IMG/VR virus record: IMGVR_UViG_3300037153_000036
Span: 1-38,435 of that record
DNA from: a virus
Length of the DNA: 38,435 nt
Reading direction: 5' to 3' (one strand)
Position numbers and translations under genes: made by a program. This document shows, piece after piece, positions 4,365 through 17,022 of the stretch; the stretch's first letter is position 1; the number at the start of each line of letters is the position of its first letter. The notes under the pieces are model-generated. The model was not told the DNA's origin and ran no database searches. It was given only the letters and a program-made list of their open reading frames with translations.

Positions 4365-4528
4365 TAACTCTATTACTCATTGTGTTGCTTGTCTTGCTGC
4401 TCGCTGGTGGAGGCTACGGCTGGCATCGTGGAGCCGTAGCCTACAACCCAGCAGGTTTACTTCTTCTTATTCTTCTTATCCTCGTCATCATTGCGATCTT
4501 TGGTGGTCCGCGCGCTGGCTGGTGGTGA
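4361..4528 (+). CDS. DUF3309-like small membrane protein, 55 aa
   Basis: The ATG overlaps the proline-rich gene's stop (ATGA), giving translational coupling despite a poorly spaced AAGG. The product has two hydrophobic stretches, residues 2-15 (ITLLLIVLLVLLLA) and 32-47 (GLLLLILLILVIIAIF). They flank a GYGWHRGAVAYNPAG loop, the arrangement of DUF3309 peptides common in Proteobacteria. It probably inserts in the inner membrane as a hairpin. Its last 72 bases are antisense to the 3' end of the GH5 gene. Function unknown. Confidence 0.65.
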   Translation: MITLLLIVLLVLLLAGGGYGWHRGAVAYNPAGLLLLILLILVIIAIFGGPRAGWW

Positions 4529-5902
4529 TGCACTCATTGTAGCTGCGCCACCACCACGCTGCTGAACGTGATCACGAACAGTGGTGCCATATGGCGACGT
4601 GAGATTGTGCGGTGGTGGATCGAGCAACACATCGCCAGTATCACTGCCAATATACCAGTGCCATGCAGCAGTGCTATATCCACTCTCATGCACCGCCTGC
4701 ACTGCTTGCATACCGCCTGGATCGACACCCTGACCAGTGGTGCTGTCACCATACTCACCAAGCACAATCGGTGGCACACCATCAGCAGTGTGCGCTGCCT
4801 GTAGCGACGCAGCCATGTTAGCAATCGCCTGCTTGTTGGTGTTGAGGTCGTTGCTATATCCTGGTGCACCGTCCCATGCATACTTGCTAGCCCAATTGTA
4901 GTAGTGCAATTCGACTGCGCATTGTGAGAAGTCACGCCAGATACTTGCGTCGAAACCAGTCCATGACTCGATGGTGTAGCTACCAACCGGATTAAGCTGC
5001 ACGATCTTATCCCTGCTACCACGCCTGATCGCCTGATAGATGCGCGTGATCATATCCTCGACATAGTGTGCGCCATGGTCATGCGTTGGTTCGTTCTCAG
5101 TGCTACACCACAGATAGTCGTCATCTGCATAGTGTGCAGACATGCGCTCCATGAAGTCGCACACCACGTCCAAGTCATGGCCTGAGTAGACACCCTTGGT
5201 TGGTGCCGATCCGGTATAGTAGCCAACGTAGTCATGCGGATCGATGACGACAACGATACCCTGCTTGGTGAGTGCCTTGACTTGCGCCTCGATATAGTTG
5301 GCCTGCAAGTTTGCCATGTCCTTAACATACACGTTCACACGCACATACTTGAGACCAGGGAACGTTTGCGTTGCCGGTGCACCAGTATTCAAGTCCGTGA
5401 CTACTTGGTCGTGGAACTGGAAGATATCGCAGTTAAAACCCGATCCCGTAAACGGACGATCATTTGGGTCAAGTATCTGACCATTCGATACACGAAATTT
5501 GCCGCTGGGTGGCGGCGCTTCTCCTGTCGGATCGTTAGTTGAGTCCCATGTATCGTTGGGCATATACCACCAATCGTCATCTTGGTTCTCTTGGTAGCAC
5601 ACACCGCTCTTAGCATAGAGACGGGCAACGCGTTGCGTGTATTGCGACTGCTCACCATCAATGGTGATGTGGTAGTTAGTCGCGAGACCAGCTAGCCTGA
5701 ACTGACGACCTTTGCTGTCAACGATGACACCGCTGGTGTCTGTAACAGTAGTGCCATCGGGTGATGGATCAGGTGATGGGCCAGGATTATGGCCGGACTG
5801 CTCAAGCGCAGTGATCCGAACCTCATGGTCCTCAACCTGAGCCTTGAGTGCGTTGAACTCTTCCATTGTCGGAACGTCGGCTGACCGCGGTTCACGTGCC
5901 AT
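4457..5902 (-). CDS. GH5-family glycoside hydrolase (cellulase-like)
   Basis: The 481-residue protein has a clear AGGAG site at 5909-5913 and an ATG at 5902. Residues 12-35 are a short coiled coil, then a Pro/Ser linker (38-50), then a Trp-rich accessory domain (about 53-128, ending WWYMPNDTW). The GH5 catalytic domain spans about 137-450. Visible catalytic features are the acid/base E271 in STENEP and the nucleophile E383 in LGEYGD, plus RVNVY and HDY barrel motifs. It should cleave a beta-glucan or exopolysaccharide. The coiled-coil start suggests attachment to the virion, but it lies far from the tail genes and opposite to its neighbours. The Lys/Asp-rich tail (residues 459-481) overlaps the 4361 gene antisense. 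Confidence 0.85.
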   Translation of the reverse strand: MAREPRSADVPTMEEFNALKAQVEDHEVRITALEQSGHNPGPSPDPSPDGTTVTDTSGVIVDSKGRQFRLAGLATNYHITIDGEQSQYTQRVARLYAKSGVCYQENQDDDWWYMPNDTWDSTNDPTGEAPPPSGKFRVSNGQILDPNDRPFTGSGFNCDIFQFHDQVVTDLNTGAPATQTFPGLKYVRVNVYVKDMANLQANYIEAQVKALTKQGIVVVIDPHDYVGYYTGSAPTKGVYSGHDLDVVCDFMERMSAHYADDDYLWCSTENEPTHDHGAHYVEDMITRIYQAIRRGSRDKIVQLNPVGSYTIESWTGFDASIWRDFSQCAVELHYYNWASKYAWDGAPGYSNDLNTNKQAIANMAASLQAAHTADGVPPIVLGEYGDSTTGQGVDPGGMQAVQAVHESGYSTAAWHWYIGSDTGDVLLDPPPHNLTSPYGTTVRDHVQQRGGGAATMSASPPASARTTKDRNDDEDKKNKKK

Positions 5903-11102: not shown

Positions 11103-11369
11103 GTGCGGATCGTTCGCATAGACACCTACATCCCTGTCGATAAGCTAAAACGCACTGGCAGGGAGAGCACGACACCGCCGTATGGCACCGTCATCGTATG
11201 GCGCTGTGACGAACAGCTAGCACATGCTCTCGATGCAGCGGCTAAGCAATACGGTTTATCACGTGGTATGCTGATCGCCAACACCATGCGTAGCGTGGTT
11301 CACAAAATCATCAACGGTAGAATTGAGGAGCGTGAGGATGAGTGGCACACCGATCCAGTGGGACAGTAA
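11103..11369 (+). CDS. Ribbon-helix-helix-like small protein
   Basis: GTG 11103 is preferred: GGAGGG at 11093-11098 is ideally placed and the in-frame ATG at 11049 lies before the terminator stem. The 88-residue product has a short strand (TVIVWRCDEQLAHALDAAAKQYG) followed by LSRGMLIANTMRSVV, the strand-helix-turn-helix order of CopG/Arc-type DNA-binding proteins. It may regulate the operon. It overlaps the helicase gene by 32 bases. Function is inferred from this pattern alone. Confidence 0.55.
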   Translation: MRIVRIDTYIPVDKLKRTGRESTTPPYGTVIVWRCDEQLAHALDAAAKQYGLSRGMLIANTMRSVVHKIINGRIEEREDEWHTDPVGQ

Positions 11370-12633
11370 ACAACAGGAGGCGATAGACGCATGTTGCGAC
11401 GTGACCAAGCGCCTTGTAGCTGTGACTGGTGCTGCGGGGACAGGCAAGACACGGTTGCTGGATGCTATAGCGAACAAGCTAATTGGGTATGGATATTCTG
11501 TCCAAACCAGTGCACCAACGGGCAAAGCAGCCAAGCGGATCAAGGAAGCTACTGGCTTGGAAGCGATGACCAATCATCGGATGCTTGGGTATGGTATGCC
11601 GACTGAGGTTGACGATGTGACTGTTGACGGTAAGAAGCGTAAGATAATGCTATCTACCGGACCCAAATTTGGTCGTGAATTGCCGCTACCATTCGACACC
11701 ATCCTGTGCGATGAATACGCGATGGTGAACGTGGAGATACACCGCAACCTCATTGATGCGCTCAAACGAGGTGCCCGATTGTGTATGTTCGGTGATGCAA
11801 ACCAGTTGAAGCCTATCGAGGAGAACAAGCAACTGGACGAAAGACCGAGTAGCTTCCAAGAAATGCTGCGTCGTTTCTCGGGGATCGTGCTGGAGACCAA
11901 CCATCGCCAGGACGAAGGAAGCGGGATCACAAGCAATGGGGTTCTTATTCTGGCAGGCCGTATGCCTAAGCGCAATGATGACTTCGCTATCACCGTCACC
12001 GACACGCCCGTGGACGTTATCCGTAAGCACGTATCTGATGCTTTCGATAGCGGTATCAGCTACGCTTCGGTAGACAACCAGATTATCACGGGCATGAACA
12101 AGTCGTGGATCGGCACGCGGAGGATGAATCTCGTCATACAGTCAATGTTCTGGGATCGCACACTGCCATACATTGAACTACCCAGGTGGAAGTCGGACAA
12201 CGATAACCCTCCCATCCGGGTTCAAGTCGGCTCTAAGGTCGTCAACACAGCCAACGGCTACGACCTTGGTAATGGAGACTCGGTATTCAACGGAGAACTC
12301 GGTATCGTTAACCAGATTGACTTTGAGTATGGAAACATTGAAGTTGACTTTGGAGACCGTTGTGTTATAATTCCTCCGTTGGTGGTTGTTCCAAAGTCCA
12401 ACGGCAGGTTCATCGAGTTCGATCCACGTAAGAACATCGACCTCGGCTATGTGCTGACGACCCACAAGTGCCAAGGCAGTGAATACCAACACGTGACATA
12501 CTGCATGAACAAGAGCACTGGATGGACGCAATCGCGTCGCAACTTCTACACGGGTATCACCCGAGCACGCAAACACTGCACCGTAATCACCGACATGTAT
12601 TCGATCACCAAGTCAACCAAGTTCCCTGGATAG
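11338..12633 (+). CDS. RecD/Dda-type superfamily 1 DNA helicase
   Basis: ATG 11338 has GAGGAG at 11325-11330. The 431-residue protein shows the SF1B helicase motifs in order: motif I GAAGTGKT (31-38), motif Ia SAPTGKAAKRI (58-68), motif II DEYAM (125-129), motif III GDANQLKPI (152-160), motif IV-like LETNHRQ, and the C-terminal TTHKCQGSEYQHV and FYTGITRARKH (motifs V and VI). This matches AAA_30/UvrD_C_2 proteins such as RecD2 and T4 Dda, which unwind DNA 5' to 3'. It likely serves replication initiation or recombination, next to the polymerase gene. Confidence 0.9.
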   Translation: MSGTPIQWDSKQQEAIDACCDVTKRLVAVTGAAGTGKTRLLDAIANKLIGYGYSVQTSAPTGKAAKRIKEATGLEAMTNHRMLGYGMPTEVDDVTVDGKKRKIMLSTGPKFGRELPLPFDTILCDEYAMVNVEIHRNLIDALKRGARLCMFGDANQLKPIEENKQLDERPSSFQEMLRRFSGIVLETNHRQDEGSGITSNGVLILAGRMPKRNDDFAITVTDTPVDVIRKHVSDAFDSGISYASVDNQIITGMNKSWIGTRRMNLVIQSMFWDRTLPYIELPRWKSDNDNPPIRVQVGSKVVNTANGYDLGNGDSVFNGELGIVNQIDFEYGNIEVDFGDRCVIIPPLVVVPKSNGRFIEFDPRKNIDLGYVLTTHKCQGSEYQHVTYCMNKSTGWTQSRRNFYTGITRARKHCTVITDMYSITKSTKFPG

Positions 12634-12642
12634 GAGACAACT

Positions 12643-13161
12643 ATGGCGTTCCAAAAGGTAGACAAGGGTTCATGGCAGAACACCGCAGACGACTTACCTA
12701 GTGTAAGGATGAGTGCTCATCTGGCGGATAGCACCTCCGTCAGATCAGTCGTGTTTTTCATCACGCGAAGAGTTCTCGACGACGTAGGTGCTCCGATTGA
12801 TGAGGAGAACCGCGGATCAATCAAGAAACGAACCCGGATGGCCGTGTATGAAGGAACCGGAACGGATGAGGGTTTCTTGCTGATCACACCCGATCCAAAG
12901 GGATATTCATGCACGCTGAGTGCTCATGGAGCACACACATTTAGTATGTCCGTAGCCATTAGCAAGCTGAGACACTACGTGCTCAATGAGTGTCCTGCTC
13001 CTGTTTGTGATGTCGAGTTCACAATAGATGAGAAAGAACATTCGATCCTCGTCCAATGTCCTGATTGGCTCCGGTTCAATGTAGAGACCAGAACACGACT
13101 GATCGAAGGTCCAAAAGTGGACGTTGTGGAAATGCGCGGCAGGCGGCGTCGCGTGGGTTGA
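12643..13161 (+). CDS. Hypothetical replication-region protein, 172 aa
   Basis: ATG 12643 follows an AGGAG site in the helicase-gene end. The 172-residue protein is soluble with a beta-rich centre (FFITRRVLDDVG, MAVYEGTGTDEGFLLITPDP, VEFTIDEKEHSILVQCP) and a very basic C-terminus (EMRGRRRRVG). No family was recognised. The basic tail and its place between helicase and polymerase suggest a DNA-associated accessory role, unproven. A long hairpin follows four bases after the stop. Confidence 0.65.
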   Translation: MAFQKVDKGSWQNTADDLPSVRMSAHLADSTSVRSVVFFITRRVLDDVGAPIDEENRGSIKKRTRMAVYEGTGTDEGFLLITPDPKGYSCTLSAHGAHTFSMSVAISKLRHYVLNECPAPVCDVEFTIDEKEHSILVQCPDWLRFNVETRTRLIEGPKVDVVEMRGRRRRVG

Positions 13162-13219: not shown

Positions 13220-15760
13220 ATGATGAAGGCACCGTTTAAGTCGATAGCGGAGGCTACGCATGAGGTTCGCGCGCTTACTCTTAGTGCTGGTCTTGCTTAT
13301 GATTGTGGACCCGGTGGAAATCCTAATAGCGATATCGCCTTGGTCGCTGAGGCTCCGGGTGAAAGGGAATGCCAGCAGAAGCAACCGCTCATTGGCCCAT
13401 CGGGACGCTTGCTATTCGATGTTCTAAGGAAGGACGGGATCACCCGCAACCATGTATACATCACTAACGTGGTCAAACGAAAGCTCGTGTCAGCAGCCGA
13501 TGCATACGAGTTGCCTGATGCATCTCGCAAAGCAACACTCACACGACAAGAGCTGGCCGCATGGAAGCACATCATTCACGAAGAACTCTCGCGTCTCCCG
13601 AACCTGCGATATCTGCTTCTGCTTGGTAACTATGCACTGGAGACCCTCACTTCGTTTCATGGCATCCTAAAGCATCGCGGATCAGTCCACGACATAGTCA
13701 TCGATGGCCGACCGATGAAAGCGATATGCACGATCAACAGTGCATACGCGATCCGTGAGCCGCGGATGGAGATCATTCATCGGATGGATTGTGCCAAGCT
13801 GCTCAAGGTCAAGGAGGGTAGGCTACATGCCCCGTCGATCACTTGTCACATCAACCCGACGGTATCGGATGCGTTGGACTATCTCCACAGCATCCGCGAA
13901 TGTGGAGTGCCAGTTGCACACGACATTGAGACGATGGCTGATGAAACAGCATGTGTGGGTTTTGCAGCATCCAACACTGAGGGCATGTGCATCAACTGGC
14001 GGTCCCAAGGAACCAACTACTACTCCGCTGCCGACGAACGGACGCTACGGCTCGCTATTCAAGAGACGGTCGGTGATCCGCGTGTTTCGCTTGTGGCACA
14101 GAACGGCCATTTTGATGCTTCGTGGTCCTGGTATAAGGACCGGATACGTGTTCACGCGTATTGGTTCGACACGATGCTTGCACACCATCTCCTTTACCCG
14201 TCCCTCAAACATGACTTGGGCTTTATCACCGCGCAATACACGGATTATCCTTACTACAAGGATGAACGTGAGGATTGGAAAGAGAAAGGCAATATCGATG
14301 ACTTCTGGCGTTACAACATCCACGACTGCTGCATCACACGTATAGCAGCAGAGGCTATGCTAGCGGAGCTACGTGAGCAGAAGCTAGACGACTTCTTCTT
14401 CAACCACGTGATGCGGTTGCAACCTGAACTAGTAGGGATGACAATAGGAGGGATACTCTGTGACACTGCCAGAAAGCAATTCATTAGCACTGAACTCGAA
14501 AGGAGTGTTGCAGAAGCAAGACTACTATGTCAGGCAACGGCTCGTATCGCAACTGGCATTAGCGATTACGAGTTCAATCCACGGTCTGTGCCGGGACTTG
14601 GCAAACTCTTCTTTGAAGACCTGCGATTGGTCGGACGAGGAACTAGCTGCGATCGAGAAAACCGCGACCGTATGCGAAAGCATCCACGGACAAGTGCAAG
14701 TGCTAGAGCATGTATCGAGGCCATTGATCGATACCTATCGGAAGCGAAGTTCTTCTCAACCTACGTCAACTCGACCATCGATGGAGACAACCGGTTCCGG
14801 TGTGAATACAGACAAACAGGAGTGAGCAGCGCGCCGGGTCGATTGAGCAGCAAGCAGACCGCTTGGGGAACCGGTCTCAACTTGCAGAACATCCCTGAGA
14901 ACGCGAAACAAATGTTCATTGCTGACCCTGGCTACGAGTTCTCTTACTTCGACATGAGCCAGATCGAGGCACGCATTGTTGCGTATCTCGCAAATATCAT
15001 CAAGTGGAAACACCAATTTGAACAAGCACGCTTGCATCCGGGATCATACGATGCACATTGTGCTCTAGCCGCTGAGATGTTTAAGGTGGACTATGAGCAC
15101 GTTCCACGACATGACCGCGACGCTGACGGAAGGCCAACGATCAGGTTCGTGGCCAAACGGTGCCGACACGGCCTCAATTATCGGATGGCTCCCGACAAAT
15201 TGGCAACGGTCACTGGACTATCTATCTCCGAAGCAGAAAAGGCTTATCGGCTCTACCATGCCGCAAGTCCAGAGATCACCGTGTGGTGGGATGATCTTGT
15301 TGAGTTGGTGCGGCGGGACCGTGCAATTACTACTTGCCTCGGACGACGATGGCTGCTACTAGAGCGGTTCGATCCAGCCGCTCTAGATAGCATCGTCGCG
15401 TTCGAGCCACAGTCGATAAACGGTGATCACACAGCCGCGGTCATCTACAAATCGCACAACGATCCGAGATGGCCTCGGGATGCTAGGGTCATACTGAATA
15501 TCCACGACGCACTCGTAGCCATGAACCGTCCTTCTGACGGTCCACTCGTTCGCGAAATCATGCGTGCCCATGCTGAGGCTCCGATCTGGATCAACAGCGT
15601 AGCCAATCGACTCAACGGTATCAACAAGCCTGAGCCGCTGATCGTGCCTGCCGAGTTCGGTGTCAGCCAACCGGATGAGCACGGTATCCACCGCTGGTCA
15701 ACCATCAAGAAGATCAAGCCCATTGCAACCGACAACGTAGCAGTGGAGTTGGCAGCATGA
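13220..15760 (+). CDS. DNA polymerase I (family A) with fused UDG-like N-terminal domain
   Basis: ATG 13220 has AAGGA eight bases upstream; 846 residues. Residues about 36-195 resemble a family-4 uracil-DNA glycosylase: AEAPG (43-47), IGPSGRLLFDVL, TNVVKRK (82-88), LLLLGNYAL, and TINSAY (171-176) at the place of the usual HPA loop. The Fe-S cysteines are missing and the loop His is Asn173. Next is a DnaQ-type 3'-5' exonuclease: D235/E237, D299 and Y365-x3-D369. The polymerase has motif A YFDMSQIEA (D578, E583), motif B R642-x3-K646-x7-Y654, and motif C NIHDAL (H762, D763). There is no 5' nuclease. This is the replicative polymerase. Residue 650 (His) replaces the Phe/Tyr equivalent to E. coli Pol I Phe762. 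Confidence 0.92.
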   Translation: MMKAPFKSIAEATHEVRALTLSAGLAYDCGPGGNPNSDIALVAEAPGERECQQKQPLIGPSGRLLFDVLRKDGITRNHVYITNVVKRKLVSAADAYELPDASRKATLTRQELAAWKHIIHEELSRLPNLRYLLLLGNYALETLTSFHGILKHRGSVHDIVIDGRPMKAICTINSAYAIREPRMEIIHRMDCAKLLKVKEGRLHAPSITCHINPTVSDALDYLHSIRECGVPVAHDIETMADETACVGFAASNTEGMCINWRSQGTNYYSAADERTLRLAIQETVGDPRVSLVAQNGHFDASWSWYKDRIRVHAYWFDTMLAHHLLYPSLKHDLGFITAQYTDYPYYKDEREDWKEKGNIDDFWRYNIHDCCITRIAAEAMLAELREQKLDDFFFNHVMRLQPELVGMTIGGILCDTARKQFISTELERSVAEARLLCQATARIATGISDYEFNPRSVPGLGKLFFEDLRLVGRGTSCDRENRDRMRKHPRTSASARACIEAIDRYLSEAKFFSTYVNSTIDGDNRFRCEYRQTGVSSAPGRLSSKQTAWGTGLNLQNIPENAKQMFIADPGYEFSYFDMSQIEARIVAYLANIIKWKHQFEQARLHPGSYDAHCALAAEMFKVDYEHVPRHDRDADGRPTIRFVAKRCRHGLNYRMAPDKLATVTGLSISEAEKAYRLYHAASPEITVWWDDLVELVRRDRAITTCLGRRWLLLERFDPAALDSIVAFEPQSINGDHTAAVIYKSHNDPRWPRDARVILNIHDALVAMNRPSDGPLVREIMRAHAEAPIWINSVANRLNGINKPEPLIVPAEFGVSQPDEHGIHRWSTIKKIKPIATDNVAVELAA

Positions 15761-17022
15761 ACTACTCCCGACTTGCACCTGCTGACACCTTCCTTGGCAA
15801 ATACATGGCTTACATGAGTCGCCAGGAGACAGCATACGTCTACGACTTCTGGTGTGCAATGTGGCTGATGTCCTGCGCATGTGGTAGGCGCATCTTTGTC
15901 GATAGGCCACGTGCACCTGTCTACATGAACCTATATGCCACCCTAGTAGGGGAGAGCGGTGTTGTCCGCAAGTCAACTGCCGTCAACACTGCGTCACGTA
16001 TTGCTCGAGAATTACTTGCAGACGACCCTATCATGGGGTTTTACGACGCGAAGATGTCGGCCGAGCGTCTGGATCAGGTTCTCAATGATAGGACAACCGA
16101 GCACCAGACAGCGCAAATGGTCATCGCCATTAGTGAACTTGCCGTATTCCTTGGAACTGAGCGCTACATGGCTAACATGCCCATACTGCTCACGGACTTG
16201 TATGATTGCCCCAACAAGCGTGATAGTGCTGGAACCTTCCTCCACGGTAAAGTAGACCAACGTGATGTATGGGTGTCGTTTCTCAGTGCGAGCACACCGA
16301 TATGGCTGCTCAAGGCGATCAACCCAAATGTGGTTGAGGGTGGCTTCACAAGTCGGTGCTTGTTCATTGTGAGCAGCAAACCAAAGAAGCGGATCGCGTG
16401 GCCAGACGTTGTGGCTACCGAAGAAGATGATCGAGCAGAACTATTGTCACTGTTGAAGGATGTCCGAACCAACGCTGAACGCTACGAGAACATAAAGATG
16501 ACGCCTCATGCATTGGCGCAGTTCTCGCGTTGGTATCGCAGTCGGACCCCACATGCAGACCCATTCCGGTCCACCTTCGATGCGCGGGAGGATGCTCACG
16601 TTTTGAGATGCGCTGCGTTCTTAGCCATCAACGATGGATCATGGGTCATCCAATCACATCATCTATCGCGATCGATCAATCTTATCAAGCAGGTGAAGGA
16701 AGATGCTGCTTCAATATTTGAAGGGACTGGTGGCAAGACCAAGTTCGCACTCGGCTTCGATGCGATCAGAAATGCACTCATCCTCTCAGGCGATGAGCCA
16801 GTGCTACGATCCCGGCTATTCATCCGCGTGCGTAACCGAATGGACAACATCGAGTTCGATGCACTACTTGGCGTTCTACATGAGTTGGATGCGATACAAC
16901 GCTTCGAGTATCGACACAATGGCGAGCGTGGACGACCAGCAGAATACATACGCGGAACGAAGCTGTTGCTTGCGCGCGGTCTCGGAGAGCAAGTGATGGA
17001 TCGGTTCGAGCAAGCGTCCTAA
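15757..17022 (+). CDS. DUF3987-like P-loop ATPase (putative primase-helicase partner)
   Basis: ATG 15757 overlaps the polymerase stop (ATGA). The 421-residue protein has an N-terminal helical region, a Walker A-type loop GESGVVRKST (65-74), an acidic strand MVIAISELAVFL in the Walker B position, LTDLYDCPNKRD, and FLSASTPIWL with GGFTSRCLFI, which are typical of DUF3987 proteins. These occur in phage and plasmid replication regions and are thought to be helicase-like ATPases of primase complexes. No TOPRIM or zinc primase domain is visible. It ends the plus-strand operon and shares stop-codon bases with the opposing virion operon. Confidence 0.75.
   Translation: MNYSRLAPADTFLGKYMAYMSRQETAYVYDFWCAMWLMSCACGRRIFVDRPRAPVYMNLYATLVGESGVVRKSTAVNTASRIARELLADDPIMGFYDAKMSAERLDQVLNDRTTEHQTAQMVIAISELAVFLGTERYMANMPILLTDLYDCPNKRDSAGTFLHGKVDQRDVWVSFLSASTPIWLLKAINPNVVEGGFTSRCLFIVSSKPKKRIAWPDVVATEEDDRAELLSLLKDVRTNAERYENIKMTPHALAQFSRWYRSRTPHADPFRSTFDAREDAHVLRCAAFLAINDGSWVIQSHHLSRSINLIKQVKEDAASIFEGTGGKTKFALGFDAIRNALILSGDEPVLRSRLFIRVRNRMDNIEFDALLGVLHELDAIQRFEYRHNGERGRPAEYIRGTKLLLARGLGEQVMDRFEQAS

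Follow-up and report, generated by a model that had tools for sequence, protein, structure and literature searches.

The DNA polymerase gene of this locus opens with a domain that resembles uracil-DNA glycosylases (UDGs) and seems to lack the residues needed for excision, which raises the question of what such a domain does at the front of a replicative polymerase. The window, i.e., the whole stretch of 38,435 nucleotides that was analyzed, is an IMG/VR virus record (IMGVR_UViG_3300037153_000036) and carries further genes consistent with a tailed phage, namely portal, terminase, tail fibre, Sak4, exonuclease, SSB, helicase, and DUF3987 primase-like. The fold of the domain, its active-site residues, their conservation across relatives, and the selection and descent of the fusion were analyzed, and the putative function of the domain was weighed against this evidence.

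The Polymerase Gene and Its Genomic Setting

The polymerase gene (13220..15760, + strand) starts with an ATG codon at position 13220, preceded by CAAGGAA, and encodes a protein of 846 amino acids composed of a UDG-like domain, a 3'-5' exonuclease domain, and a polymerase domain. Pfam matches above cut-off were obtained for UDG (residues 33-182), 3'-5' exonuclease (residues 220-383), and DNA_pol_A (residues 441-782), with E-values for the full-length protein of 1.2e-15, 1.9e-9, and 2e-28, respectively. The DNA_pol_A score of 99.9 bits against a gathering score of 34.3 identifies the protein as a family-A DNA polymerase. The catalytic residues D235, E237, D299, and D369 of the exonuclease domain (residues ~205-400; 13832..14419, + strand) are intact, as are the palm carboxylates of motifs A and C (D578 and H762-D763) of the polymerase domain (residues ~401-832; 14420..15715, + strand), which matched Pol I large fragments with a Z-score of 34. 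The full-length AF2 model was predicted with a pLDDT of 89.8 and a pTM of 0.86. The PDB matches listed for this model, Pol I large fragments together with Pol theta, covered residues 205-834, and in BFVD the whole length was matched by other predicted phage polymerases.

A RecD/Dda-like helicase gene (11323..12633, + strand), assigned by profile match and synteny, and a gene for a DUF3987 primase/helicase-like protein (15757..17022, + strand; synteny), the start of which overlaps the polymerase stop, are conserved neighbors of the polymerase gene. Throughout the clade these genes keep the order exonuclease - Sak4 - SSB - helicase - polymerase - DUF3987. Just 5' of the polymerase gene lies a gene for a 172-amino-acid protein without a family match (12643-13161, + strand), which was recognizable at 29 loci and was not found in the more distant members examined. 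ARAGORN called a tRNA-Ser (anticodon act; 15298-15388, + strand) that lies entirely within the polymerase reading frame and is probably a false positive. Elsewhere in the window a glycoside hydrolase family 5 (cellulase) gene (4457-5902; PF00150, E-value 6e-17) is located on the opposite (-) strand among early genes, an unusual cargo for a phage of this size.

Fold and Family Assignment of the N-Terminal Domain

The N-terminal domain (residues 1-203; 13220..13828, + strand) matched the Pfam UDG model with an E-value of 8e-17 and 62.0 bits (cut-off 24.3), the NCBIfam model UDG_fam4 with 2.5e-19 and 69.6 bits, which is under the curated cut-off of 125.3 for that model, and the UdgX profile with 2e-14. 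The structure of residues 1-213 was predicted by AF2 from a 12-sequence alignment (pLDDT 83). The top match of this model was the family-4 UDG 4zbx (Z 20.5, 2.6 Å, 181 residues aligned), and Thermus UDGa (1ui0) was matched at Z 19.4. Lower-ranked matches were UdgX (Z ~18), the Thermus UDG 2d3y (Z 14.8), and TDG/Mug (Z ~12), and 158 residues were aligned to a phage family-A polymerase (9QHS; Z 12.2). The relationship to UDGs that the initial annotation had read from short motifs is hereby borne out at the level of both the family profiles and the predicted superfold, and a chance resemblance of motifs was ruled out by the profile E-values together with the fold match at Z 20.5. According to the predicted model the domain is a family-4-derived UDG fold (Z 18-20.5). 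The family-2 Mug/TDG enzymes are characterized by motif 1 GINPG, at which place the window reads AEAPG.

Active-Site Residues

The pocket of Thermus UDGa (Tth UDGa) consists of E41, G42, E47, F54, N80, and H155, and N89 places the water; E47 blocks thymine and N80 holds N3/O4 of uracil, and the N80A mutation costs more than 40-fold in k2/Km (PMC5387724). In UdgX, activity is lost in each of the mutants F65A, N91A, K94A, and H178A (PMC10776899). The corresponding residues in the window are E44, A45, E50, Leu57, N83, and N173, and the counterpart of Tth K83 is kept as K86. The motifs from which the domain had been recognized initially, AEAPG (residues 43-47), TNVVKRK (82-88), LLLLGNYAL (132-140), and TINSAY (171-176), were all found in place.

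Motif 1 (AEAPGERE, residues 43-50; 13346..13369, + strand) follows the family-4 pattern GE(A/G)PG with both glutamates present, E44 corresponding to Tth E41 and E50 to the thymine-blocking E47, although the first Gly is replaced by Ala. According to the clade alignment the Phe that stacks on uracil (Tth F54, UdgX F65) is replaced by Leu57 in the window (13388..13390, + strand). Motif 3 (TNVVK, residues 82-86; 13463..13477, + strand) keeps N83, the equivalent of Tth N80, and K86, the equivalent of UdgX K94; the segment behind it, which holds a Cys and N89 in family 4, is replaced and N89 is gone. In motif 2 (NSAYAIR, residues 173-179; 13736..13756, + strand) R179 corresponds to UdgX R184, and N173 stands where family-4 enzymes have the catalytic His of HPS/HPA, a loss that had been correctly recognized. 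The four-cysteine Fe-S cluster of family-4 UDGs is likewise absent as annotated: just one Cys (C29, out of register) precedes motif 1, the motif-3 region is without Cys, and the Fe-S cysteines of a fused relative (C-x2-C, KCRPP, and a later C in L025) have no counterpart in the window.

To call the active site lost goes too far: the loss is confined to its catalytic and stacking part, and the active enzyme Mug also has an Asn at the position of the His; the uracil-recognition residues E44, E50, and N83 are kept. Neither the replacement of Phe by Leu57 and the absence of N89 nor the retention of E44, E50, N83, K86, and R179 had been noticed in the initial annotation. In sum, the residues for holding uracil and keeping out thymine are present, and three others are lost, namely the His that acts on the leaving group, the Asn that places the water, and the Phe that stacks on uracil. 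The loop formed by residues 87-105 was modelled poorly and might hide a replacement residue.

Conservation Across Relatives

A first search seeded with the UDG domain yielded 73 loci. Because this choice of seed could bias the result, the search was repeated from the exonuclease-polymerase part alone, which gave 286 relatives, of which 80 were kept. All 77 loci with an intact 5' end have at least 150 residues ahead of the exonuclease, and the remaining three are cut by contig ends.

Residues were counted in 66 distinct polymerases, including that of the window (numbering of Tth UDGa); polymerases of the clade are ~45-70% identical. The catalytic His was found in none of the 66, its place being taken by Asn in 65 and by Ser in one, and the position of Phe54 is occupied by Leu or Met in 63/66 and by Phe in 3/66. 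The recognition residues are nearly invariant (E41 65/66, E47 66/66, N80 64/66, K83 66/66), and the motif-2 Arg is present in 61/66. The N-S-A loop described initially is real and private to the window: the second place is Pro in 61/66 and Ala in four, Ser occurs in the window alone, and the clade thus reads N-P-A. This combination of lost catalytic and mostly retained recognition residues is fixed across a large virus clade. A single odd phage or a sequencing error was ruled out, as the state is common to dozens of distinct contigs.

A small subclade recovered by the UDG-seeded search (L079, L084, L086, L087) has Glu at the place of the His and a broken motif 1 (GEAVNEHE), and the two changes occur together.

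Selection and Descent

For 17 members the median dN/dS values (NG86) of the UDG, exonuclease, and polymerase domains, approximate since dS was often high, were 0.127, 0.106, and 0.142, respectively, and the mean identities of the three domains were 73, 73, and 74%, respectively. The UDG domain is under purifying selection as strong as that of the polymerase. A decaying pseudodomain was ruled out by the polymerase-like dN/dS and the presence of the domain at every intact locus.

The clade of the window forms one branch (support 100/99) in the exonuclease-polymerase tree, and no member of this branch has the His. Its deepest members (L068, L076) retain Phe54, which suggests from the sequences that the His was lost earlier than the Phe. 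Related fusions range from a seemingly intact catalytic complement to complete pocket decay. In neighboring fusion clades, L025 has all the canonical features (cysteines, GEAPG, PF, TN, HPA), L093, L096, and L103 miss the full Cys set and keep the pocket and the His, and much of the pocket is missing from L022, L095, and L098. The last two differ in motif 1, Phe, N80, and His alike. Since decayed fusions (L095, L098, L111, L022) stand beside close relatives with intact pockets, pocket loss happened several times.

In several phage relatives (L023, 3977-7381; L024, 1727-4364; L026, 2602-5736; L107) the UDG-exonuclease and the polymerase are encoded by two reading frames, in some cases separated by small ORFs, a pattern of either inserted elements or a split that recurred at the border of exonuclease and polymerase.

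Putative Function of the Domain

Because the domain is always present, is constrained like the polymerase, and has lost its catalytic residues with the recognition residues retained, a non-excising module that engages DNA is the best explanation, and we consider it moderately likely that the domain was silenced for excision and kept in this capacity in cis with the replicative family-A polymerase. The residue losses would abolish uracil excision, or nearly so. In Tth UDGa the H155S mutation lowers k2 more than 1000-fold and does not raise Km (PMC5387724), and the UdgX mutant H178A is inactive (PMC10776899); as chemistry is lost in Tth H155S with no increase in Km, binding in the absence of excision is by analogy a reasonable description of the window domain. 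Elements of its pocket and those that contact phosphate would give the domain a grip on the template DNA. It may still read a base that is flipped out, with uracil the likeliest, and a link to stalling or proofreading is speculation. Excision in the single-stranded template beside the polymerase would leave an abasic site ahead of it; silencing would avoid this lesion, which provides a reason for it.

Four points speak against this explanation. With Leu at the position of the stacking Phe, bases should be bound less well, if the mutants of the characterized enzymes are a guide: F54A costs Tth UDGa 17-fold in k2/Km (PMC5387724), and UdgX F65A has lost activity (PMC10776899). The conserved Glu, Asn, and Lys could be structural, and the N91-K94 pair of UdgX has been described as a structural contact. 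In 18 clade records no gene related to uracil turned up. Finally, L093, L096, and L103 keep all the catalytic residues, and since such complete-looking fusions exist, silencing is not an obligatory result of being joined to a polymerase.

The main rival is a purely structural or processivity role, in which the UDG fold would support the exonuclease-polymerase or keep hold of duplex or template DNA with no recognition of a base. We regard this as possible, if somewhat doubtful. It would account for the combined loss of the Fe-S cluster, His, N89, and Phe, and it agrees with the confident prediction of the full-length protein as one body (pTM 0.86), with the persistence of the domain in fusions that decayed further (SPO1, L095, L098, L022), and with the vaccinia D4 UDG, which serves in a processivity factor independently of catalysis (PMC1936997). 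However, E41, E47, and N80 are kept at 97-100% across polymerases that are ~45-70% identical, which a bare scaffold would not require, and pocket decay of the L095/L098 type is limited to two members of the window's clade.

That the domain senses uracil in some form is plausible from its residues, with E47 and N80 favoring the reading of uracil and Leu57 and the absence of uracil-linked genes disfavoring it; the exchange of F54 for Leu would argue against tight uracil binding in particular. A full reader that checks the template for uracil, excludes thymine, and alters synthesis without excision is a rather unlikely form of the module. If true, it would make a disarmed repair enzyme the convergent counterpart of the uracil pocket of archaeal family-B polymerases.

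Improbable, in our judgment, is a glycosylase that is still active with altered chemistry or on another substrate and that uses the motif-2 Asn. E. coli Mug is an active glycosylase with Asn at this very position (NPSGLSR), and E41, E47, and N80 are retained in the clade. Inactivity is hence beyond proof by sequence alone, Asn being natural in active Mug. Mug differs from the window in having Lys at the place of N80 and in motif 1, where the Asn of GINPG positions the water; this Asn is Ala45 in the window and N89 is missing, so that no known water-activating residue is left. The stacking Phe is lost too, and replacement of the His kills activity in both Tth UDGa and UdgX (PMC5387724, PMC10776899).

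Very improbable is a domain that reads modified bases of the phage genome itself, which might be expected in thymine-replacing phages such as SPO1 or SP-15: although the polymerases of both have UDG-like domains and 9QHS is titled 'phiLo family-A DNA polymerase with modified template', 18 clade records contained no gene for a dUTPase, a ThyA (thymidylate synthase-like) protein, ThyX, or a second UDG, leaving nothing among the neighboring genes of the clade that would link the domain to thymine modification or uracil metabolism, and E47, which blocks thymine (5-methyluracil) in Tth UDGa, is invariant.

The favored explanation, the silenced module that engages DNA, is of interest since the loss of catalysis-linked residues, the hold on recognition residues, and polymerase-like selection make it a specific and testable case of a repair enzyme repurposed into a replication module. 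If it included the true reading of uracil, such a polymerase in a bacterium or a bacterial virus would represent a new solution for copying damaged templates and possibly a reagent.

Comparison with Known Systems

With the family-4 UDGs (Tth UDGa, Sulfolobus tokodaii UDG) the window domain shares the fold, the E-x-PG motif 1, E47, and N80, and it differs from them by the absence of the Fe-S cysteines, the catalytic His, and N89, by Leu in place of Phe, and by its fusion to a polymerase. UdgX is defined by the KRRIH loop with the covalent His109 and by GEQPG (PMC10359453). The window domain resembles UdgX of Mycobacterium smegmatis in fold (Z 18), in N91, K94, and R184, and in a longer motif-3 loop, but it reads AEAPG and has neither the KRRIH loop nor His178; a UdgX-like crosslinker was ruled out, as the loop is without His.

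In vaccinia virus the D4 UDG has a catalysis-independent role in the polymerase holoenzyme (PMC1936997), and D4 with A20 and E9 shows a UDG fold serving a replicative polymerase independently of excision. This is a functional analogy only, because D4 is a family-1 UDG and a separate subunit that is bound via A20 to a family-B polymerase, an arrangement that is not that of the window and has no common origin with it.

The N-terminal fusion of a UDG to a polymerase is already known from the PaBG group, SPO1, and the structure 9QHS. The PaBG/Lupandier-group polymerases have the same order of UDG, exonuclease, and polymerase as the window, and the best match of their UDG domain is likewise Thermus UDGa 1ui0 (PMC7412058), but they belong to jumbo phages and to another sequence clade. 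That publication, the only one found to describe such phage polymerases, treats the domain as a repair glycosylase and, in the passages considered, does not discuss lost catalytic residues (PMC7412058). The phiLo polymerase 9QHS, a solved structure, is like the window a phage family-A polymerase with a UDG-like fold, and unlike it longer (1142 amino acids) and distant in sequence. The SPO1 DNA polymerase gp31 also has an N-terminal UDG-like domain without Fe-S cysteines and has also lost the stacking Phe, whereas it keeps the motif-2 His (HPN) and has lost N80 (TSIVK). SPO1 DNA carries hydroxymethyluracil, a dUMP hydroxymethylase gene lies near the polymerase gene, and the PDB molecule names of family-4-type UDGs include 'phage SPO1 DNA polymerase-related'. 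Compared with these systems, a silenced domain that retains its recognition residues throughout a clade is, as far as we searched, new.
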